Below are positions 14,866 through 29,482 of a DNA stretch of 64,000 bases, piece after piece. The stretch lies in the NCBI GenBank assembly GCA_024640315.1, contig JAHEFF010000007.1, positions 5,333 to 69,332 on the forward strand, written 5' to 3'. The first letter of the stretch is position 1. Every line of letters begins with the position of its first letter. The notes under the pieces were generated by a model. The model made no database searches. It was not told where the DNA came from and was given only the letters and a program-made list of their open reading frames with translations. Source of the DNA: Woeseiaceae bacterium. Lineage in GTDB: Bacteria > Pseudomonadota > Gammaproteobacteria > Steroidobacterales > Woeseiaceae. A program made the position numbers and the translations under genes.

Positions 14866-15717
14866 TCAGATTACCGGGAAGACTACGTTGCACTGGCCGG
14901 TTCCGGAGCTTGGGAAGTATTCCGTAAGGACTTCTCCCTCACCGCTATAGTCGTTCCAGCCGAGTAGCCCGAACAGCATGGCAGTGTCGTGCATGTTGCC
15001 TTCTCCACTGCAGTCTTTCGCATACTGCGGCAACATTTTCAGGAACTCCTGAATCTCACCCTTCTGCCACATCTCCAGGACCATGTGATCGGTTTTTTCA
15101 TTGAAGGGGCTGGAGTTTTTAAAGAGGTGATCGTCGACCACCTTATTCGGCGCAATTTTGTGTGACAGCGAGCCGCTGGCAAGAAACGCAACCTTCTTGT
15201 CGGAAGCCTCGACTGCCATGCGAATTGCCTCGCCCATGATTTTCGACTCTTCCAGCTCGGCGTCGTAAATCCAGGCCGCAATCGACACGATCTTGATGCT
15301 CTCATTGATACCCATGAAGCGCAGAGGTACGAGCGTTCCGTACTGGAGACCGAGTGACGGTATATCCGTGTGGCAGCGCGTGAATGTGCCCATTTCTGTC
15401 GCCTTGTCGGCTATTGCCTGGCCAAGTTCAGCGTCGCCAACGTAGTTATATTCGAGATTGCGGATGAAGTGAGGGAACTCGGTGCTCGTATAAAGTCCGG
15501 AGCAGTCCTTATTGGCATTGATGTGATAGCCGGCGTTCACCAGCCAGTGCGTGTCGGCAATAATGATTGTGTCGACATCAAGCGAACGTATCCTGTCGCC
15601 GATTTTTCTCAGGCCCTCGATTGCCGCCCTGCGGCAACCCTTATGTGGGCCATCTTCTTCGGAAATAAACATGGACGGCACATGCGTGACCTTGGCCGCC
15701 AGCACGAGTTCTCCCAT
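14866..15717 (-). CDS. Class III (LigB-type) extradiol ring-cleavage dioxygenase, HpaD/HpcB-like
   Basis: 283 residues, the length of bacterial 3,4-dihydroxyphenylacetate 2,3-dioxygenases. Expected metal-site regions are present: THVPSMF near residue 12, IIIADTHWLV with His at about 57, FPHFIRNLEYNY, and the late ASGSLSHKIAP. A GAGGT Shine-Dalgarno lies seven bases before the ATG. Family members use Fe(II) or Mn(II) to open catecholic rings next to the hydroxyl pair, in the cytoplasm. It diverges from the ThDP enzyme operon, and the intergenic region holds a candidate operator. Homoprotocatechuate is the likeliest substrate by similarity, but other catechols are possible. Confidence 0.88.
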   Translation of the reverse strand: MGELVLAAKVTHVPSMFISEEDGPHKGCRRAAIEGLRKIGDRIRSLDVDTIIIADTHWLVNAGYHINANKDCSGLYTSTEFPHFIRNLEYNYVGDAELGQAIADKATEMGTFTRCHTDIPSLGLQYGTLVPLRFMGINESIKIVSIAAWIYDAELEESKIMGEAIRMAVEASDKKVAFLASGSLSHKIAPNKVVDDHLFKNSSPFNEKTDHMVLEMWQKGEIQEFLKMLPQYAKDCSGEGNMHDTAMLFGLLGWNDYSGEGEVLTEYFPSSGTGQCNVVFPVI

Positions 15718-15803: not shown

Positions 15804-15928
15804 TAGTGAGACATTTCGCTCGCTATGCGATACAACTGCAGCGTACGGCACGGCGTGGTGACCCACGAAGGTCAAAGCTTTGCTATCTTTTCAGTCATAA
15901 AAACCAGACAAACCGAAGAGACCATCTG

Positions 15929-17845
15929 ATGACCAAGAAATCTGATGAAAACAAGCCACGAATAAGTCGCCGAGCGTTCCTGGGAACCGGCGCTGCGGCT
16001 GGCGCCGCCTCCATGCTGCCGGCCGGGCCGGGCGCACAAGCGGCTCCGCAAGCAGCTGGCGAGGCCACGAATGCGAAAGTGAGCCCGCCGTCACCGGAAC
16101 AGATGGCGAGAGAGGTGGGCAGTGCCTTGCCGCCGTCGCTCGTCGAACGGGCAGCACAACGCCCTGGTTCCGACCTGATGGTGCAGGTTCTGCGCGATCT
16201 GGAAATCGAGTACGTGGTGTCGAACCCCGGCTCGAGTTTCGAGGGACTCCAGGAGTCAATTATCAACTACGGTGAAATTCCGAACGTAATGCCGGAATTC
16301 ATTACCGCACTGCATGAGGAATCAGCCGTCGATATGGCACACGGCTATGCCAGGTCAGAAGGAAAACCTATCTGTGCCCTGATCCAGGGGACGATTGGCC
16401 TGCAACACGCGTCGATGGCGATCTACCAGGCATTTCTCGGTCAGGTCCCGATGATCGTGCTGGTTGGTCGTGAAGACAAACATTTCCTGCAGCAACACAC
16501 GGCTGACGACGTCGCAGCACTGGTCCGGCCGTTTACCAAGTGGGATACACATCCACAGAATATCGAAGAGACGCTGGACGCTTTGCAGGAGGCCTATCGC
16601 CAGTCGATCACGCCGCCTTGTGCGCCGGTCGTTGTCATTATGGATGGCCACATCGGCAAGGAAGAGGCCGGTGATCTGCGGGTACCCGCCTACTATCCGC
16701 CGGTCATACCGACGATTACCGAGCGCCAGGCCGACAAAATCGCCGCTGGCCTGGCAAGTGCCAGCAATCCCCGAATCTCCGTCGGCCGATTTCGCACGCC
16801 GGCCGGCATCGATAGCGCTGTTGAACTTGCTGAGCTGGTCGGCGCCTCTACGGATAGCCGGTCAACCAGTGGTCCGATGAGTTTCCCGCAGACCCACCCG
16901 CTCACCGGTCCCGGAGTCAGCACCGAGTACGACTTCGAGCTGGGGCTGGAAGTGCCGGGCGCCCAGGCATCTGTGACGGGGCCTCATCTTCGCACACTCG
17001 ATGATCGTGACCTGGTTGGCATCAACTTTGGCAATATCAGGCCGCCGGTTCGTCCCACTCCGGATACCAGCGGTGACTTCGACCTGACTGCAGATGCTGA
17101 AGCCAGCCTGCCACTTATTATTGAAGCGACGAAAAAGCGACTAAATGGTCAGGCAAAGAACGCGATTGCCGCGCGTACGGTGTCGCACACGAAGGCGAAC
17201 CGTGACAATCGAATTGCCGGGCTGCGCGAGGCGGTTGAATCGAAACGCCCCGGCTGGAACGGAAGCCCGGTCAGCCTGGCGAGGATCTATGCGGAACTGT
17301 GGCCACTGATCAAGGATCTTGACTGGTGCCTTGCGTCGCCGAGTATTTTTTCGGGGCGTCACCACGTCGACCTCTGGGATCACGACAGACCATACAGCTA
17401 CCTGGGTGTTTACCCGGCCGCGGCACTCGGATACGCACTCGGCGCATCCACAGGTGCCGCGCTGGCGGCAAAAGGTCGCGACCGGATCGTTATCAACATC
17501 CAGGGCGACGGCGATTTCAACTACTCTCCCGGTTCTGTGTGGACTGCTGCGCACCACAACCTGCCGATTCTGACCATCATGCACAACAATCGCGCATACC
17601 ACATGGAGCTGATGTACCTGCAGTTCATGGCGGGTGTCAGGGGTCGCGGAACCGACAGGGCGGAAATCGGTACGACGTTCAGAGACCCGTATATCAACTA
17701 CGCGAAGTTGGCCGAGGGTTACGGAGTGAAGAGCGAAGGCCCGATCAGCGATCCGAATGAGCTCTCCGCGGCGCTCGCCCGAGGCGTGGAATCCGTGAGC
17801 AACGGCGAGCCCTACTTGATTGACGTCCTGACACAACCGCGGTGA
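15929..17845 (+). CDS. Tat-exported thiamine-diphosphate enzyme (acetolactate synthase/pyruvate oxidase superfamily)
   Basis: 638 residues from the ATG at 15929. The N-terminus carries a twin-arginine signal (PRISRRAFLGTGAAAGAAS), so the folded holoenzyme is predicted to be exported. The ThDP fold follows: a pyrimidine-binding domain with the catalytic Glu in FITALHEESAVDMAHGYAR, a poorly conserved middle domain, and a pyrophosphate-binding domain with the canonical GDG-X24-NN motif starting QGDGDFNYSPGSV. All ThDP residues I can check are present. The middle domain does not show an obvious FAD-binding pattern. The stop overlaps the start of a c-type cytochrome gene, which suggests a periplasmic oxidative reaction on a 2-oxo acid or acyloin. 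The substrate is unknown. Confidence 0.88.
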   Translation: MTKKSDENKPRISRRAFLGTGAAAGAASMLPAGPGAQAAPQAAGEATNAKVSPPSPEQMAREVGSALPPSLVERAAQRPGSDLMVQVLRDLEIEYVVSNPGSSFEGLQESIINYGEIPNVMPEFITALHEESAVDMAHGYARSEGKPICALIQGTIGLQHASMAIYQAFLGQVPMIVLVGREDKHFLQQHTADDVAALVRPFTKWDTHPQNIEETLDALQEAYRQSITPPCAPVVVIMDGHIGKEEAGDLRVPAYYPPVIPTITERQADKIAAGLASASNPRISVGRFRTPAGIDSAVELAELVGASTDSRSTSGPMSFPQTHPLTGPGVSTEYDFELGLEVPGAQASVTGPHLRTLDDRDLVGINFGNIRPPVRPTPDTSGDFDLTADAEASLPLIIEATKKRLNGQAKNAIAARTVSHTKANRDNRIAGLREAVESKRPGWNGSPVSLARIYAELWPLIKDLDWCLASPSIFSGRHHVDLWDHDRPYSYLGVYPAAALGYALGASTGAALAAKGRDRIVINIQGDGDFNYSPGSVWTAAHHNLPILTIMHNNRAYHMELMYLQFMAGVRGRGTDRAEIGTTFRDPYINYAKLAEGYGVKSEGPISDPNELSAALARGVESVSNGEPYLIDVLTQPR

Positions 17846-18264
17846 ATACGTTTATGAAAAATATCAGAAGTTCTGTTGCGCTCGTTTCGGTCTGCTCTGT
17901 GTTGCTGGTGGCAACTGCAGCTGGTCAGGATTCAGGTGATACGGATAACGGCAAACAGCTTTATTTCGATCACGCGTGTTACAGCTGCCATGGCTATGGT
18001 GGAATCGGTCGACGTAACATTGCGAATAATGCCAGCGGCATCCTTGTCAGCGAGGAAGTATTCATTACCTACCTGCGTGCGAGGGCTGATCAGAATCCGC
18101 AGTTTCCAACTCAGACGATGCCGAATTATGCAGCGTCGAGCCTGTCGGACGATGATGCAAGAGATATTTACGCGTTCATCAGGACGCTCAAGGACGATCC
18201 GCCGGAGGTGGATGACATCCCTGCCCTGAAAGGGATACTGGAAGATGCGGAAACAGGATTGTGA
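17842..18264 (+). CDS. Periplasmic class I c-type cytochrome
   Basis: 140 residues with a signal peptide (SSVALVSVCSVLLVATAAG). A single haem-attachment site CYSCH occurs in LYFDHACYSCHGYGGIG, and the probable axial Met is in QTMPNYAASSLSDDDARDIY, the usual helix order of small cytochromes c. The GTG start at 17842 lies in the stop of the ThDP gene; an ATG at 17854 is an alternative. The tight coupling suggests it accepts electrons from the exported ThDP enzyme and passes them to the respiratory chain. This partnership is inference. Confidence 0.92.
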   Translation: MNTFMKNIRSSVALVSVCSVLLVATAAGQDSGDTDNGKQLYFDHACYSCHGYGGIGRRNIANNASGILVSEEVFITYLRARADQNPQFPTQTMPNYAASSLSDDDARDIYAFIRTLKDDPPEVDDIPALKGILEDAETGL

Positions 18265-21698: not shown

Positions 21699-22538
21699 TC
21701 AACGCTTGATCATACGCCAGGCATTGTCGGTATCTTCGGCACGCCCTTCTGCCTTCAATTTGAAAAGATGCGCCAGCAACGAGCGACTTGCCAGACGATG
21801 CAGGCTTGAATCGACGTCGTCATAGACGAATGGTGTTAGCTCATTCAGTTTCAGGCCGGGGTTCTCCTCCAGCGCTGAGACAACCTTTGCCTCACGTTTT
21901 AGCCGATGATTGATCAGCCAGTCCACCACTTCATCCGGGTTGTCGATTAATGGCCCGTGTCCCGGGAGCAACGCTGCGAGATCGAGCATCTTCAGTCGCT
22001 CGAGTGACTCGAGGTAGTGCAGCATGTTTCCATCCGGCGGATCGATGACGACGGTCGATCCACTCATGATGTGATCGCCGGTGAAGAGCCATTTCAATGC
22101 TTCGTGGCGATAACAAAGGTGATTGGACGCGTGGCCGGGCGTACTCACTGCACGAATAACGAACTCGTCAGTTTTCAGCATGTCGCCATCGCCAAGCAGC
22201 CGGTCAGGGACAAAGGTCCGGTCCTGCGCCTTGCCGTCCGGCGCGGGCATACCCAGCAGCTCGGCGCCGGTCTGCTCAGCCAGTTTCACCGCAGCCGGCG
22301 AGTGGTCAGGATGAGTGTGGGTCACCAGGATCCAGCAGATCGGACCAGGTGCGGATTCCCGGATTGCGTTCACATGCACGTCCAGCGGCGGTCCGGGGTC
22401 GATGACGGCGACCTGGTTTTCGCCCACCAGGTACGTATTGGTTCCCGGGCCGGTCATCATGCCGGGGTTAGGCGCTACGAGGCGGTGTACGCCGGGTCCG
22501 AGCTCTACGGCAACGCCGGGTATGAGTTGCTCGCTCAC
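21699..22538 (-). CDS. MBL-fold metallo-hydrolase (LACTB2-like)
   Basis: 279 residues. The metallo-beta-lactamase motif HxHxDH is in ILVTHTHPDHSPAAVKL, with further ligands in STPGHASNHLCY and LFTGDHIMSG, and a C-terminal His in LLPGHGPLIDN. The small helical C-terminal domain (LKLNELTPFVYDDVDSSLHR) is the one found in LACTB2-type hydrolases and in thioesterase or glyoxalase-II relatives. It probably hydrolyses a thioester or phosphodiester in the cytoplasm. It overlaps the Nudix gene by four bases and is the last gene of the dehalogenase-containing group. Confidence 0.9.
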   Translation of the reverse strand: MSEQLIPGVAVELGPGVHRLVAPNPGMMTGPGTNTYLVGENQVAVIDPGPPLDVHVNAIRESAPGPICWILVTHTHPDHSPAAVKLAEQTGAELLGMPAPDGKAQDRTFVPDRLLGDGDMLKTDEFVIRAVSTPGHASNHLCYRHEALKWLFTGDHIMSGSTVVIDPPDGNMLHYLESLERLKMLDLAALLPGHGPLIDNPDEVVDWLINHRLKREAKVVSALEENPGLKLNELTPFVYDDVDSSLHRLASRSLLAHLFKLKAEGRAEDTDNAWRMIKR

Positions 22539-23326
22539 AGCGAATCGACCCCGTCATAACCCTCGTCGCCCGGAATCAGGACATATGCCTTTCCGTCGAT
22601 TCGTTTCTCTACAGGCCTGATCTTCTCAATGCCAAGAGCGGGTCGCGCCTCTGCCCATGCGACCAGCTCGGCCACGCTATTCATGCCCACCATGTCACGG
22701 AGATTCATCGTGGTGGGATAGGGCATCGGTAGCTGTCCCAGATTGCCAAGGGAAAGCGCGTCTGCTGCAGTGAGCCAACGAATGTCGGTGACTTCACTGC
22801 CATCGTGGCTGGCTGTCTGCCCCGGGGGCAGCGCTGCAATAAAAAATCTCGTCTGCCATCTCTTCGGGCGGACGTAAGGCGTTTCCCAATAGGCGAAATA
22901 GTGCAATGCGTCAGCGGCCATACAAAGGTTCTTTTGGCGCAGAAAATCCGCCCAACGGAGTTTGCCCTTGTCGACGTCCTCTCTGAGTTGCCCCATGCCT
23001 GGCTCGTCTGCGGCCCAGTTCCCCGCCAAGTCTCGCGCGAGCAATATGCCGGTCTCTTCGAACAGTTCCCGAATGGCGGCGCTGTAGTAGTCCAACCCGT
23101 CGGCAATATCGAGTATCGCATCTGCCTCTTCTGCAGACCGTCCGGCACAGAAAATATGTGCGCCTGACTCGTCGTGATCGACGACACCGCCGGGAAAGGC
23201 ATAACTGTCGCCAAAGGCGTCGCCAGCTCGTCGTCTTACCAGCAGAATTTCCGCTGCCGATTGGCCTTCGCGGGCGACCACAATCGTTGCGGACGGCCTG
23301 GCGGGAGGGTGTGAAGACTTGTTCAT
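22535..23326 (-). CDS. Nudix hydrolase, NUDT19/CoA-diphosphatase-like
   Basis: 263 residues. The Nudix box is split: SYAFPGGVVDHDE is separated from AAIRELFEETGILLARD by about 35 residues. An insertion inside the box is characteristic of NUDT19-type acyl-CoA/CoA diphosphatases. The REL-x-EE-x-G core is intact, so the enzyme should be active, cleaving CoA derivatives to 4'-phosphopantetheine and adenosine 3',5'-bisphosphate. It overlaps the MBL gene and starts 12 bp after the dehalogenase stop, so it is very likely in the same operon. Confidence 0.88.
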   Translation of the reverse strand: MNKSSHPPARPSATIVVAREGQSAAEILLVRRRAGDAFGDSYAFPGGVVDHDESGAHIFCAGRSAEEADAILDIADGLDYYSAAIRELFEETGILLARDLAGNWAADEPGMGQLREDVDKGKLRWADFLRQKNLCMAADALHYFAYWETPYVRPKRWQTRFFIAALPPGQTASHDGSEVTDIRWLTAADALSLGNLGQLPMPYPTTMNLRDMVGMNSVAELVAWAEARPALGIEKIRPVEKRIDGKAYVLIPGDEGYDGVDSL

Positions 23327-23338
23327 TTAGCGGTCAGG

Positions 23339-25555
23339 TTAATCCTGACTGGAGCTTTTGTATGGGTTGAACTGGTCCGTGTCGCGCGACGATATTTCTG
23401 CATCAGCGAGCGGTGGAGTCGGAATGTAGTGGGCCGGCTTCGGTCCTCCGGCCTGCACACGTGCGAGCGCCTCTGCCGGCGTTTCCAGCAGTGCTGCAGC
23501 GGCAATCGCTTCTTTCCGGTTGGGTATGACCGGGATGCCGTGGCTGTTTGGTGGCGGCATAACGTTAGCATTGTAATAAGCGATCTTCTGAGTTGCCGGA
23601 TCGATATGCCGCTTCAGGTCCAGGTCTCTCTTGTTAACGCCCTTGCGTGGTTCGACGCAGACTCCGTCAACAATTTCGAGATCGAGCCACCACTTTTTGG
23701 CCGGGTTTCTTATCCCATGTCCCAGCAGATCATCGAGACGCACCGCGATGGGAACCAGGAATGGTTTCAGCCAGCGCGCATTAATGCCGAGCCAGCTCGC
23801 GATCTGGGTTGCGATAGGTCCGTCCCATGTGACCACCTTGTTCAGGGGGCAGGTCTTCATACAGCGACCGCAGGCAAGGCCGCGCTGGTTGGTCAGTCGG
23901 TAGCGAGCGCAGCGCTCTGCATCGAGTTTCCAGATCTCGTAGCCGTTAAACATGACCTTGTCGCCCCAGCTGATCGCATCACAGGGACACTCCCGTGCGC
24001 ACTTGTAACAGTTCGAACAGAATTCCTGCAGACCGAAGTCGATCGGTTTATCCGCTACCAGGGGCAGGTCCGTGGTCAGGACGACCGACTTGAATCGCGG
24101 GCCGACGAATGGATTCAGTACGAGCTCTCCGATACGGCTAAGTTCGCCCAGGCCAGCGAGCAGAATGAGCGGCAGCTGCAGGACTTCCGAGTCCGCATTG
24201 GTCTGCGCGCGCGCTGAATATCCGAGCGCGCGCAGGTGCTCCGCCATGACGCCGGCGATCAGTGCGCCGCGCATGTAGGCGCGCATCGACTGGGCCCCGG
24301 AGATAAAGTCATCGCCCGAAGCGCCTTCCATCGTCTCGTACTCCTGGTCGATGAGCATGACGACCGCGTACTGATGGTGGCATTCGACCGGCTTGCCCTT
24401 GTCGACATGCGAGTACCATGCGTATTTCGGAATTTCGCAGACGCCCGTCAACTCTGCACCGAGCAGGTAGGAAAGGGACTTCAGCGCCCGGGTGTTCTCT
24501 TCGGCATCATCGCAGCTTGCGGATTCGGCAGCCGCAACCGGCCCGTCCTGGTGGGGCACCATCGCCATGATTTGCTTCACCATGGCAGCCGCGAGAGGGT
24601 GCTTGAAAGAGAACCGGGTTCGTTCTGTTTGCGTCTTCTTGCCGAGGTCGCCATGAACCGGGCGTTCGAAAAAGGATGCGCGTTTTGGAATCCTGGGCAC
24701 CTCGTCGTCAATGATCAGTGTCGTTGGCCTGTCGACCCGATCGACCGTCTCCATCGCGAATTTGCTCATGTGTGTCGGCCGGTTGTTCTGCCGCCATCGT
24801 TCCAGCCCCGATGTGGCGCCGCCAATTCCCAGTTGCCACGCGATGCCTTTCGCTTTTTTCGCTGCGCGTGGCGCAAGGGGCAGGTCCGTGGCCAGGGCGT
24901 ATTCGGTTGTCACGGCGCACACCGCGTAACGCTTTTCCAGGTAGGGATTCAGAATTCCAGTGCGGGACCTGGTACCCAGGCCTGACATGACGGTGAGGCG
25001 CTCGAGATCGACGTCACCGTGATGTTTATCGTGAGCCACGGCCGAAAAGCCCATATTCTGAATGTGATTGGCAACGCTGATTGCGATTTCATAGGCGCGG
25101 AACTCTGCCGTTTTTGCAATTGAACCGTCCACCCATGACCGGGCCAGCGATCCTTCTTCCGGAATCCGACCAACTTCGACCACGATGACGATTGCATGAC
25201 CGTGATTCAGTGGCGTTGCATCGTCGAACCAGCAGCTTTCCTCCATTTCACAAATGCCAACCTGGCTCGCATTCAGAAAATAGGCGGAGCCTTTGATGTC
25301 CACCATGCGTCGCGACAGGTCGTCCGGTACCGGTGCTTTCGATGCCACCGGGTTGTCATCGCGCAGCGAATGAAAGATCTGCTGATATTTTGTGATCGCA
25401 TCCGGAAAGGTACCCGAGGGACCCGCAATGGTTGGCGGCCGTGTACAACGCGGCAGGGAAATTTCGCTAACCAGTATTCGCGGATCCCTTGCGATGCGCT
25501 CCAGTGGATATGGACCGAGGTGATACGGCCGCGACTTGTTAGAAAAAAAGATCAT
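23339..25555 (-). CDS. Cytoplasmic cobalamin/Fe-S reductive dehalogenase (NpRdhA-like)
   Basis: 738 residues without a Tat signal, unlike respiratory RdhA enzymes. Two tandem copies of the cobalamin-binding module are visible. A degenerate copy lies at about residues 85-230 (MSGLGTRSRTGILNPYLEKR) and the likely functional copy at about 365-505 (LAGLGELSRIGELVLNPF). Two 4Fe-4S motifs follow: C513-x2-C-x2-C-x3-CP and C549-x12-C562-x2-C-x3-CP. Tyr427, Lys489 and Arg553 align, one position offset, with residues I recall as catalytic in Nitratireductor NpRdhA (Tyr426, Lys488, Arg552). That enzyme dehalogenates ortho-halophenols. It starts 22 bp after an aromatic-acid transporter gene. A fused reductase domain, as in BhbA, is absent, so electrons must come from elsewhere. 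Confidence 0.87.
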   Translation of the reverse strand: MIFFSNKSRPYHLGPYPLERIARDPRILVSEISLPRCTRPPTIAGPSGTFPDAITKYQQIFHSLRDDNPVASKAPVPDDLSRRMVDIKGSAYFLNASQVGICEMEESCWFDDATPLNHGHAIVIVVEVGRIPEEGSLARSWVDGSIAKTAEFRAYEIAISVANHIQNMGFSAVAHDKHHGDVDLERLTVMSGLGTRSRTGILNPYLEKRYAVCAVTTEYALATDLPLAPRAAKKAKGIAWQLGIGGATSGLERWRQNNRPTHMSKFAMETVDRVDRPTTLIIDDEVPRIPKRASFFERPVHGDLGKKTQTERTRFSFKHPLAAAMVKQIMAMVPHQDGPVAAAESASCDDAEENTRALKSLSYLLGAELTGVCEIPKYAWYSHVDKGKPVECHHQYAVVMLIDQEYETMEGASGDDFISGAQSMRAYMRGALIAGVMAEHLRALGYSARAQTNADSEVLQLPLILLAGLGELSRIGELVLNPFVGPRFKSVVLTTDLPLVADKPIDFGLQEFCSNCYKCARECPCDAISWGDKVMFNGYEIWKLDAERCARYRLTNQRGLACGRCMKTCPLNKVVTWDGPIATQIASWLGINARWLKPFLVPIAVRLDDLLGHGIRNPAKKWWLDLEIVDGVCVEPRKGVNKRDLDLKRHIDPATQKIAYYNANVMPPPNSHGIPVIPNRKEAIAAAALLETPAEALARVQAGGPKPAHYIPTPPLADAEISSRDTDQFNPYKSSSQD

Positions 25556-25577
25556 GAGTCAATAGCAATTATCGGAG

Positions 25578-26915
25578 CTACCTGACCTTTAACCGGTATG
25601 AAAGCAATCCGCCGATGATCATCGGTATGGCGAAGACATAGTAGTTGCCTGACATACTGAGCCCGGCGGCGATCAGGAAGCCGGCGAGCGCCGGTCCGAC
25701 CACGGCGCCGAAGCGCCCAAGTCCTATAGCAAAGCCGATGCCAGTGGTTCGTATGCTCGTTGGATAGACCTTGGCGGCCACGGCATAAAGCCCGGTGAAG
25801 CCACCCTGCTGCAACAGCCCTACGAGGAACGTCAGCGTCAGCAGAAGCCCCTCCTGATTCGGTGCCGCCGCGAATACCACCATCGAAACTGCCGCCGCAA
25901 CCAGGAAGCCCGACACGATGTGAGTCAGGTGCCAGCGGATAGCGAGTGTTCCGGTGAAATAGATGCCGATTACGCCACCCAGGTTAAACAGAAAGAAGGC
26001 ATAGCGACCCACTTCAGGCGTAAATCCTGCCTGCTCCATCATCCGCGGGATCCAGCTCATCAGGAAGTAGAGTGTGCTGAAGCACATAAAGAACGTAAGC
26101 CAGAGAGTCAGCGTCGTGGTTCGGTGCTCTTTGGTGAGTAAGCCGAGCATATTGTTGATGACACCGGTGGACTTCGGTGCTTCCGCAACCGCCACTTCCG
26201 GGAGACTGGTCAACGTGTCCTTCTTTAGTTTGCGAAGGATCTTGTTAACACGCTCGAGCGCGTTTTCGGGCCTGCGTTCAAAAAGATATTTGAGTGACTC
26301 CGGAATCATGGCCCAGGCGACCAGGCCCATGACCAGTGTCAGCCCACCGCCAAACCAGAACATGCCCCGCCAGCCGTAGTCGGGCAGAATAAATCCGGCC
26401 ACAACAGAGGTCATCATGGCGCCCAGTGGATACCCGGAGGTCACGAGGGCGACCGACAACGCCCGGTATTTGTCCGGGCTGTACTCGGCCGCAAGCGTTG
26501 CCTGGGACGCGAGCATTGCGCCAGCTCCCAGGCCGCTGATAAAGCGCAGGATGACGAACTCCAGCAAAGTCGTTGCGGTGGCTGTGAATATGATGGAAAT
26601 GCTGACAATGAACACGCTCAGGATAATCATCCGGCGGCGCCCAATGACGTCCGATACCGGTGCCAGAATCATGGCACCCGCCATCATGCCCGCCAGCGCA
26701 AAACTGAATATGAGGCCCAGCTTGTCGGCCGTCAGTTCGAGATCATTCGAGACCGAAGTCGCTACAACAGCCATTGCCGTGATGTCGAATCCATCCAGCA
26801 TGTTGAAGAACATGCAAAGCCCGATGACCAGGAGTTGCTGGCCACTGACCTGTCCGTTGTCGATGACATCTGCAACGACATTACTGCTGAGTGCGGGTGC
26901 TGCACTATCAGACAT
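25578..26915 (-). CDS. MFS transporter, aromatic acid:H+ symporter (AAHS) type
   Basis: 445 residues with 12 predicted membrane helices. The AAHS hallmark MLDGFDITAMAVVA in the first helix carries the acidic pair required for transport in PcaK and BenK. The MFS loop motif appears as APVSDVIGRRRMIIL, and the central loop is long and basic. The family imports benzoates and hydroxybenzoates with protons across the inner membrane. It is the first gene of a minus-strand run with the dehalogenase, Nudix and MBL genes, so its substrate is plausibly the haloaromatic acid handled by the dehalogenase. Confidence 0.9.
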   Translation of the reverse strand: MSDSAAPALSSNVVADVIDNGQVSGQQLLVIGLCMFFNMLDGFDITAMAVVATSVSNDLELTADKLGLIFSFALAGMMAGAMILAPVSDVIGRRRMIILSVFIVSISIIFTATATTLLEFVILRFISGLGAGAMLASQATLAAEYSPDKYRALSVALVTSGYPLGAMMTSVVAGFILPDYGWRGMFWFGGGLTLVMGLVAWAMIPESLKYLFERRPENALERVNKILRKLKKDTLTSLPEVAVAEAPKSTGVINNMLGLLTKEHRTTTLTLWLTFFMCFSTLYFLMSWIPRMMEQAGFTPEVGRYAFFLFNLGGVIGIYFTGTLAIRWHLTHIVSGFLVAAAVSMVVFAAAPNQEGLLLTLTFLVGLLQQGGFTGLYAVAAKVYPTSIRTTGIGFAIGLGRFGAVVGPALAGFLIAAGLSMSGNYYVFAIPMIIGGLLSYRLKVR

Positions 26916-27163: not shown

Positions 27164-29482
27164 TCAGTTCCTTAGCGGGCTGCCGTACTCGAGCATGTGT
27201 GTAATGCGCGCGCGGGTCTCGGGCGTCTGCGCCAGCGTCACAAAGGCTTTACGTTCCAGGTCCAGCAGGTCCTGTTCTGCCATTTCCGTCCCGGCGTCGA
27301 TGTCTCCACCCGTGACGATCATGGCAATCTGCGAGCCCGTCGTAACGTCATGCGGTGTCAGTCGACCTTTCGCCCGGGCCTTCTCCAGCCAGGCATCCAT
27401 TTCCTGCCGTGCTTCCCGTCCTGGCATGACCAGGGAACCTCTTGCTGATGGCTTACGGGAAGACGTCATTGAAAGCGCGGCTTTTGTAGCGGTATCGAGC
27501 AACCGGTCGCGATTCATGACGTACTCATCCACACCGCTGCGAAACAAGGCAAGCGGCTCGGCTTCAAGCGGTGAGCGCGCGGTCCTGCCGTAGCCCACAT
27601 TCATGAATGCCTGCCAGGCGCCCTTCGTCACGTCGCCTTCTCGTTCAGACCAGCGATAGACCATCTCCTTCACGCCACCACCACCTGGCACAACACCGAC
27701 CAGCGATTCGACAAGACCCGTCACGGAGTTCGCATGGAAGATGACTTTGCTGCAATGCAGGACAACCTCGAAACCGCCACCGAGAGACAGGCCGGATGGC
27801 GCTGCAACGACGGGAATGGGTGCATCACGAAGAGAAAGAACCGTCTGCTGGAAATGATCGAGAAAGCTGTCGATGCCATCCATGTCATCACGGACGATGA
27901 AATCGAGCACTCTTTCGAGGTTGACGCCGCAGGAAAAATGCTGCGCGTCATTGTGAATGATCAGCGCCTTGCAGTTGTCAGTCGCGTGTTTCACTGCGCC
28001 TGCAATCAATTCCATGGATTCGCCGTCCAGCGTATTCGCCTTGCTGTGGAACTCGACGAGTCCCACCTCACCGGGCAACGTGAAATAGCTCGCTACCTTG
28101 TTTTCCAGAACCGGCGACAAGGTTCTTCGCATTTCGCTGAAGCGGGTGACGCCCGGCACTCGGTCGAGATTCCGGTAACTGCCATCGGCAAGCAGGTATT
28201 GAAGCTTGCCACCGTGCACCCGGTAGAAGGTCTTGCCCGCCGCTGCAGCAAGAAACGCGGGTACCGACCGGCCTTCGTTTTTGAGGCGATCGATGAAAAG
28301 ATCCACGCCAACCGCATCGATCATTTCGAAAGGCCCCTGAATCCAGTTATAGCCGAGCTTCATCGCGTCATCGACTGCAACCAGCGATTCGTTGACATCG
28401 GGTACGAGCTCAGCCGCATAACAAAGGGTGTTCGACAGAATGTCCCAGGCGTACTGACCATAAACGCCGTCATCTTCGAGAAGCAGCGTGAAGTCGCTGG
28501 CGGCTTCCGCATCGAGGGCTACCCGGGGCTTTTCCGGTTCGGCCTCACGGTAACCAAAGGTCTCGAAATCCAGCGCTTCCCTGCTGCCGTCGGCACTCAC
28601 ACGATAGAAACCACCCTGCGTTCCTTTATTGCCTATAAAGCCCTCGTCGATCATGCGCGTCATCAACGGAATCTCCGCCGCCACTTTGTGGAACGCGTCC
28701 TCTGGCGGAAGAATCGAAACGAGGCTTTTGGCGACGTCACTCATGAGGTCGATGCCGATCAGGTCGTACAGGCCGAACACGCCCGTTTTCGGTATACCCA
28801 TCGGCCTGCCAAAAATCGCATCGGCCTCCTCGGGCTTCAGCCCGAGGCGGAAAGCGGTATGGAGTGCGGTCTGGATCGCGAAAACGCCGACCCGATTACC
28901 GAGAAAACCCGGCGTATCGTTACAAACAACGATGCCTTTGCCCATACGCTCGTCGTTGAACTGCTCCAGGCAATCAATGACTTCCTGCTTCGTGCTTTTG
29001 CCACGAACGAGCTCGAGCAGCCGCATGTAACGGACCGGATTGAAAAAATGCGTAATGGCGAATTCGGCACGGAAATCCTGCGGCATGCCATCGACCAGCA
29101 GCGAAATTGGGATCGTGGATGTGTTGGACGAAACGATTGAGCCACGTTTGCGCACGGCATCAATCCTCCGGTACAGATCCTTCTTGATATCCAGGCGCTC
29201 TACGACGGCCTCCGCAATCCAGTCGACAGCGCCGAGTTTTTGCAGGTCGTCCTCGATATTGCCGATCGTGATGCGTTCCAGGTTGTCCTTGTGCAGAAGC
29301 CCCGGCTGGTTTTCGTCGAGCAACCGCTCAATGGCGCGCTCACAAACGGCGTTTCGACGCTCGCCGTCCGCAGGCAAATCCAGCAGGAGAACGTCGACAC
29401 CGGCATTGGCCAGCTGCCCGGCGATACCCAGTCCCATTGTGCCCGCGCCGATCACGGCGGCGCTGTTGATTTGGTAGCTCAT
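27164..29482 (-). CDS. FadN-like 3-hydroxyacyl-CoA dehydrogenase/enoyl-CoA hydratase
   Basis: 772 residues with the domain order opposite to FadB. The NAD-binding dehydrogenase comes first (AAVIGAGTMGLGIAGQLANA, then THFFNPVRYMRLLELVRG and NDTPGFLGNRVGVFA), and the crotonase domain is at the C-terminus (SGLSLGGGFEVVLHC and GLVESLVGVVPGGGGVKEM). Both crotonase Glu residues are present. This layout matches Bacillus FadN and its proteobacterial relatives, which act in beta-oxidation together with a thiolase and an acyl-CoA dehydrogenase. Neither partner is in the window. It starts three bases after the alpha/beta hydrolase stop. Confidence 0.92.
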   Translation of the reverse strand: MSYQINSAAVIGAGTMGLGIAGQLANAGVDVLLLDLPADGERRNAVCERAIERLLDENQPGLLHKDNLERITIGNIEDDLQKLGAVDWIAEAVVERLDIKKDLYRRIDAVRKRGSIVSSNTSTIPISLLVDGMPQDFRAEFAITHFFNPVRYMRLLELVRGKSTKQEVIDCLEQFNDERMGKGIVVCNDTPGFLGNRVGVFAIQTALHTAFRLGLKPEEADAIFGRPMGIPKTGVFGLYDLIGIDLMSDVAKSLVSILPPEDAFHKVAAEIPLMTRMIDEGFIGNKGTQGGFYRVSADGSREALDFETFGYREAEPEKPRVALDAEAASDFTLLLEDDGVYGQYAWDILSNTLCYAAELVPDVNESLVAVDDAMKLGYNWIQGPFEMIDAVGVDLFIDRLKNEGRSVPAFLAAAAGKTFYRVHGGKLQYLLADGSYRNLDRVPGVTRFSEMRRTLSPVLENKVASYFTLPGEVGLVEFHSKANTLDGESMELIAGAVKHATDNCKALIIHNDAQHFSCGVNLERVLDFIVRDDMDGIDSFLDHFQQTVLSLRDAPIPVVAAPSGLSLGGGFEVVLHCSKVIFHANSVTGLVESLVGVVPGGGGVKEMVYRWSEREGDVTKGAWQAFMNVGYGRTARSPLEAEPLALFRSGVDEYVMNRDRLLDTATKAALSMTSSRKPSARGSLVMPGREARQEMDAWLEKARAKGRLTPHDVTTGSQIAMIVTGGDIDAGTEMAEQDLLDLERKAFVTLAQTPETRARITHMLEYGSPLRN

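Follow-up and report, generated by a model that had tools for sequence, protein, structure and literature searches.

The DNA analysed here (the window) is a stretch of 64,000 nucleotides from contig JAHEFF010000007.1, which belongs to a member of the Woeseiaceae whose genome sequence is 85% complete. Its minus strand carries a run of genes built around rdhA (23339..25555), which starts with an ATG codon and specifies a 738-amino acid relative of NpRdhA, a cytoplasmic reductive dehalogenase. Read along the minus strand, the order is a FadB-like gene, a gap of 248 bp, the gene for an AAHS-like transporter of the MFS class (25578..26915), 22 bp, rdhA, 12 bp, a Nudix hydrolase gene and, overlapping the latter by 4 bp, a gene for an MBL-fold hydrolase. 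These coordinates agree with the initial annotation of the region, which had placed the transporter gene 22 bp upstream of rdhA in the same run. A promoter and terminator scan returned one promoter-like site, on the opposite strand (1.9 in shuffled sequences), and seven terminator-like sites (4.8 in shuffled sequences).

The rdhA gene product

The rdhA product matched the reductive dehalogenase model TIGR02486 with 195.4 bits (cut-off, 160.35); NpRdhA itself scores 171.8 bits. Its best relative in the PDB was NpRdhA (4ras; E 4.6e-196, residues 3-705 of the query against 3-698 of the chain). Full-length relatives were confined to NpRdhA entries (E about 1e-195), with PceA and another RdhA following at about 1e-26. 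An AlphaFold2 model derived from a 30-sequence alignment (pLDDT 85.9, pTM 0.90) aligned with 4ras over 678 residues (Z 45.7, root-mean-square deviation 2.2) and so reproduced the full-length fold of NpRdhA, an enzyme with a duplicated cobalamin-binding domain; the same model gave Z values of about 23-24 with respiratory RdhA and about 14 with QueG. Identity to NpRdhA, measured on the structural alignment, was about 46% over the whole length.

The protein begins with MIFFSNKSRPYHLGPYPLERI, where no twin-arginine motif could be seen by eye, and a search for TAT_signal yielded no match at E <= 0.01. Two 4Fe-4S motifs, spanning cysteines 513-569 (23849..24019, minus strand), were identified both by domain match, Fer4_7 being over its cut-off, and by alignment. 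Neither a Fer2 nor a NAD-binding domain was found in the protein, which stops at residue 738. A profile search of the source genome with PF13486 returned nothing at E <= 0.001 and matched none of 14 control genomes; because this model also fails on NpRdhA and BhbA, its absence is uninformative. Comparison with two orthologues gave dN/dS (nonsynonymous to synonymous substitution) ratios of 0.071 and 0.070, a third pair being saturated at synonymous sites and giving no ratio; by this measure rdhA is under purifying selection. We hold with good confidence that the rdhA product is a cytoplasmic, non-respiratory, catabolic reductive dehalogenase of the NpRdhA type, predicted to depend on cobalamin and two [4Fe-4S] clusters and to act on an ortho-halophenol that is used catabolically. 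It adds one member to an established enzyme group and does not define a new kind of enzyme. The initial annotation had described a cytoplasmic reductive dehalogenase of 738 residues, with two 4Fe-4S motifs, no Tat (twin-arginine translocation) signal and no respiratory role, and on all these counts it was borne out.

Comparison with characterized systems places the protein closest to NpRdhA of Nitratireductor pacificus pht-3B (4RAS, 6ZXU, 6ZXX, 6ZY0, 6ZY1). The two are colinear over their full length, and both lack a Tat signal and a fused reductase and carry two 4Fe-4S motifs. BhbA, from plasmid pBHB of Comamonas sp. 7D-2, and JtRdhA of Jhaorihella thermophila share the RdhA module with two 4Fe-4S motifs; BhbA shows about 38% identity in the matched part, and JtRdhA is reported to conserve the residues equivalent to Y426, K488 and R552 (PMC10463259). 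Unlike the query, however, each of these has a reductase module fused to its C-terminal end (BhbA has 1013 amino acids, with Fer2 at 932-1002), and the absence of such a domain rules out a self-sufficient enzyme of the BhbA/JtRdhA kind. With the respiratory PceA of Sulfurospirillum multivorans the query shares the cobalamin/4Fe-4S catalytic half, some 300-320 aligned residues, but it has neither a Tat signal nor an rdhB gene, and its extra N-terminal half lies outside the PceA match. A respiratory RdhA was ruled out, since the Tat motif is missing and gaps of 12 and 22 bp cannot accommodate rdhB.

Active-site residues and family position

Residues were compared in an alignment of 97 rows including NpRdhA: the window, six loci from the family, ten from the order search and 80 from the genome_contigs scan. 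The latter are the best 80 of 589 relatives, and counts drawn from them are biased to close relatives. Tyr427 (codon at 24275..24277), Lys489 (24089..24091) and Arg553 (23897..23899), all encoded on the minus strand, align with Y426, K488 and R552 of NpRdhA, and all three occur in 95 of the 97 rows, with gaps in the other two. The same holds for the eight cysteines of the 4Fe-4S motifs (C513/C516/C519/C523 and C549/C562/C565/C569). Ser423 and Met424, the counterparts of S422 and M423, occur in 96 rows, and the remaining row has a gap. Thus, the alignment with NpRdhA upheld the earlier assignment of Tyr427, Lys489 and Arg553 as counterparts of its catalytic residues; as the residues correspond, the "one position off" of that assignment is an offset of numbering only. 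In NpRdhA complexes, Y426 is reported as the proposed proton donor and S422, K488 and R552 as holding the phenol hydroxyl, and a K488Q variant is reported inactive (PMC7565698). Dehalogenation of an ortho-halophenol by the rdhA product is therefore very likely. Because these contacts are made to the phenol hydroxyl, they speak for an ortho-halophenol substrate and give no information on a carboxylate.

Three positions set the query apart from NpRdhA. P311 is replaced by Ser316. K307, reported to bridge the carboxylate when the ligand is posed at the mouth of the cavity (PMC7565698), is replaced by Arg312, and arginine occupies this position in 72 of the 97 rows. The sequence is compatible with a carboxylated substrate and is no proof of one. 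The third position is that of A419, which is reported to line the pocket for the second bromine (PMC7565698). Here the query has Gly420 and 92 rows have glycine; alanine occurs in three rows only, those of two Nitratireductor loci and L119. This distribution suggests that the second-halogen pocket of NpRdhA is unusually tight, and that di-ortho substrates of greater bulk may be accepted by most of the family members sampled.

A tree of 93 rows was built by a quick method without bootstrap, leaving out the partial or gapped loci L028, L029, L056, L060, L084 and L101. The query fell with other Woeseiaceae proteins inside a clade of 70 rows (support 100), distinct from the 17-row clade of NpRdhA and Hydrogenophaga-type proteins (support 100) and from the group formed by BhbA, Ruegeria and L027. 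Near-full-length orthologues with at least 68% identity occur in 12 of 107 genomes of the family, the source genome included. One further genome has a 202-residue piece of rdhA (67%) at a contig end, and the family search found only more distant relatives in G011 and G026 (genomes are numbered G and loci L). In literature searches on Woeseia reductive dehalogenases, and on dehalogenases together with protocatechuate, hydroxybenzoate or cobalamin, the partial texts returned did not include the present gene arrangement, which may still have been published.

Two compact reductive dehalogenase-like paralogues of 327 and 335 amino acids were also noticed (L030:4546-5529 in G000:C7 and L031:2023-3030 in G000:C72). 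They show no visible Tat motif and score about 100 bits on TIGR02486, below the cut-off of 160. Judged by eye, they have arginine at the Lys489 position and do not keep Arg553. Short forms of this kind recur across the family.

The transporter and the probable insertion site

The transporter scored 355.6 bits on TIGR00895 (AAHS), which was its best NCBIfam model all the same, the cut-off being 418.55, and 224 bits on PcaK (cut-off, 770). Related solved structures were distant only. Since both scores fall below the cut-offs, the "hydroxybenzoate type" given in the initial annotation is not established by sequence. In 9 of 16 stretches inspected around its relatives (L152, L155, L157-L161, L164 and L165) the transporter has neighbours of the lig or hpa type. 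Models were run on L152, L155 and L164 only, and HpaE, LigB and PobA exceeded their cut-offs in one or other of these; L152 also has an HpaF-like and two LigB-like genes that remained under the cut-offs. Because its relatives sit among lig/hpa-type clusters, the protein probably imports aromatic acids, and its coupling to rdhA is probably loose.

A transporter match (E <= 1e-90) was obtained in 44 of the 107 family genomes, and in six of the 44 it lies within 20 kb of rdhA: adjoining it in G000, G030 and G056, about 3 kb off in G004, and at distances of about 12 and 17 kb in G048 and G049. The copies that adjoin rdhA or lie close to it in G000, G030, G004 and G056, which represent three genera, group with one copy from G044 (94/97), which has a Nudix gene directly after it and no rdhA in between. 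In L038, from the same order but another family, a transporter of the same cluster adjoins rdhA on the opposite strand. The frequency of separate occurrence and the G044 arrangement rule out an obligate pair.

The outer genes of the run encode a FadB-like 3-hydroxyacyl-CoA dehydrogenase/crotonase (27164..29482), on the far side of the transporter and rdhA, the Nudix hydrolase (22535..23326) and the MBL-fold hydrolase, which has a winged helix (21699..22538), all on the minus strand. In G031, a genome of the same genus with only distant reductive dehalogenase-like matches (best E 3.8e-27), the Nudix gene comes within about 100 bp after the FadB-like gene and the MBL gene is next in line, with neither rdhA nor the transporter between them. 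The flanks beyond are largely the same genes on both sides, and the M24 and HpaD genes of the window were not detected at the G031 site. At the same site, transporter and rdhA are found together in G000 and G030, and rdhA alone in G024 and G029. In G027 a polysaccharide deacetylase gene lies near rdhA, and in G028 a gene of the same deacetylase cluster, LigK, LigB, a Gfo/Idh (LigC-like) gene and rdhA stand in line. A Nudix match at 1e-30 was absent from 5 of 12 genomes of the genus.

Since the FadB-like, Nudix and MBL genes stand side by side in G031, where both rdhA and the transporter are missing from the site, these are probably ancestral neighbours, outside the dehalogenation function. The rdhA gene, whether accompanied by the transporter or not, is probably a variable insert, flanked by chromosomal genes of greater age. 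Partnership of the three genes with rdhA was ruled out on the arrangement in this one congener. The initial annotation had noted that the Nudix and MBL genes follow rdhA, which they do, and had called the CoA-acting genes unusual partners; a partnership of the CoA-acting, Nudix or MBL genes is not supported, given the G031 arrangement. The informative neighbours are LigK/LigB, PobA and the transporter, with the FadB-like, Nudix and MBL genes as apparent bystanders.

Substrate, pathway and alternative explanations

In the proposed scheme, the AAHS-like permease would import the substrate as an anion, and a ferredoxin or reductase encoded elsewhere would supply electrons that reach cobalamin by way of the two 4Fe-4S clusters. 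By homology to NpRdhA, the halogen, bromine first and in ortho position, would bind cobalt while Ser423, Lys489 and Arg553 hold the phenol hydroxyl and Tyr427 donates a proton. The dehalogenated phenol would then enter an oxygen-dependent ring-cleavage pathway encoded elsewhere. Since transporter and rdhA occur independently in relatives, import by the neighbouring permease is a possible step only.

Several observations weigh against this scheme. The residue match comes only from sequence alignment and from structural alignment of the whole model, and enzyme activity and cofactor binding are assigned here by homology only. No gene for a redox partner (FAD reductase or ferredoxin) was found in the run around rdhA; in this the locus differs from that of NpRdhA (L118), where FAD reductase and 2Fe-2S ferredoxin genes lie downstream. 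The closest 2Fe-2S ferredoxin of the source genome is on another contig, and such a gene lies near rdhA in 3 of the best 80 of 589 homologues. Adjacent ferredoxin or reductase genes are reported for some NpRdhA-type members and described as not universal, and the oxidoreductase and two ferredoxins noted for the NpRdhA system are reported to have failed in vitro (PMC10463259). CobS was not found in the source genome by a search that matched 10 of 14 control genomes, and the best BtuB-like receptor scored 346.7 bits, below the cut-off of 599.7. As CobS was not found and a BtuB-like receptor is present, cobalamin is probably obtained by salvage. In 38 of the 44 family genomes that have the transporter it does not lie within 20 kb of rdhA, and it is nearby in 2 of the best 80 of 589 wider homologues. 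PobA was not found in the source genome (best score 19.7 bits), nor was a close protocatechuate-type LigB (best identity 30%), in both cases with the genome 85% complete. Finally, among the same 80 homologues a LigB-type dioxygenase gene occurs near three and a PobA-like gene near one; these neighbour counts were made with 17 query proteins and no background control, 41 of the 80 loci being at least 18 kb long.

The substrate is probably an ortho-halophenol carrying an acid group. We tentatively favour 3-bromo- or 3,5-dibromo-4-hydroxybenzoate, giving this identification a little less than an even chance. It draws support from relatives. In G028 (L022), LigK (343 bits; cut-off, 304.5), LigB (514; cut-off, 317) and the LigC-like gene lie directly upstream of rdhA on the same strand. 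In G048 the transporter, PobA (641.7 bits; cut-off, 538.7) and LigB genes are about 12-17 kb from rdhA, and G049 has a PobA-like gene (54% identical to that of G048) and a LigB-type gene near rdhA. These arrangements favour hydroxybenzoate and protocatechuate in those relatives. They count against a variant with the same chemistry in which the substrate may be a neutral bromophenol, or a 3-halo-4-hydroxyphenylacetate (for example from halotyrosine) bound for a homoprotocatechuate-type pathway. This variant deserves serious attention, and we would not expect it to prevail. It draws on the reported phenol hydroxyl contacts of NpRdhA (PMC7565698), on the missing PobA and protocatechuate dioxygenase, and on a small contig of the source genome that carries a truncated HpaE-like gene (312.8 bits over 191 positions), a LigB-like gene and, labelled by eye, LigA-like and BASS-like transporter genes. 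The HpaE, HpaF-like and LigB-like genes adjoining the transporter's relatives in congeners point the same way, as does JtRdhA, which is reported to debrominate 3-bromo-4-hydroxyphenylacetate as well as hydroxybenzoates (PMC10463259). Its action on both also speaks for the NpRdhA-type reading itself. The window itself has a gene over the cut-off for HpaD, 3,4-dihydroxyphenylacetate 2,3-dioxygenase (14866-15717, minus strand; TIGR02298, 419.8 bits against 315.95), which G027 and G028 also keep at their rdhA loci. This gene, however, is 7.6 kb from rdhA, past genes on the opposite strand, and lies beside none of the best 80 of 589 homologues. Of the earlier proposal that a halogenated hydroxybenzoate is imported and dehalogenated, the ortho-halophenol chemistry stands as very likely and the hydroxybenzoate as plausible.

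It is unlikely, if conceivable, that the enzyme serves to render toxic bromophenols harmless, the product not sustaining growth and the transporter being a bystander. The rdhA genes lacking a transporter at the same site (G024, G027, G028 and G029) would fit such a role, as would the failure of the 17 query proteins to detect catabolic markers near most of the best 80 of 589 homologues; against it stand the LigK-LigB-rdhA arrangement of G028 and the grouping of the transporters that accompany rdhA in three genera. A different class III B12 enzyme, such as a QueG-like protein, is highly improbable in spite of the shared fold (Z about 14) and a weak TIGR00276 match, for that match reached 22.2 bits against a cut-off of 200, which rules out a QueG epoxyqueuosine reductase, and the NpRdhA catalytic set is intact at Z 45.7.

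If the catabolic NpRdhA-type reading is extended to the family, the Woeseiaceae rdhA might serve as a portable adaptor that brings halogenated natural phenols into hydroxybenzoate or homoprotocatechuate ring cleavage, its partners at the site being a transporter, lig genes or none. We advance this as speculation that may well fail; should it be true, aerobic reductive dehalogenation would be a routine means of carbon acquisition in the Woeseiaceae. The group is described as abundant in permeable marine sediments and as facultative (PMC8443593), which suits the earlier suggestion of an aerobic or facultative marine host as far as family membership can tell. The present finding places a dehalogenase of the NpRdhA type, intact and with a substrate prediction that can be tested, in an abundant group of these sediments.

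Other genes were noticed near rdhA in further loci. In L085 (G004) its neighbourhood includes a gene for a 3,4-dehydroadipyl-CoA semialdehyde dehydrogenase of the BoxD type (688 bits; cut-off, 444), and in L017 (G091) a BoxD-type gene 86% identical to that of L085, a hint of a benzoyl-CoA (box) route in some Woeseiaceae. In a gammaproteobacterial group (L047, L048, L051, L056 and L060), a gene for a VanA-like Rieske oxygenase, with 68-100% identity to the one in L048, is found near rdhA and suggests methoxylated or haloaromatic substrates there. Within the window, the HpaD gene is divergent from a gene for a thiamine pyrophosphate-dependent enzyme (15806-18261, plus strand) with a Tat-like signal, the TAT_signal match being weak and below cut-off. 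Relatives of this enzyme occur in L021, L022, L045 and L134, at the same place in several congeners. It adjoins a small gene resembling a c-type cytochrome (by eye) and one for a Tat-like protein of the M24 peptidase family, which together suggest that the enzyme is exported and has a partner that carries haem.

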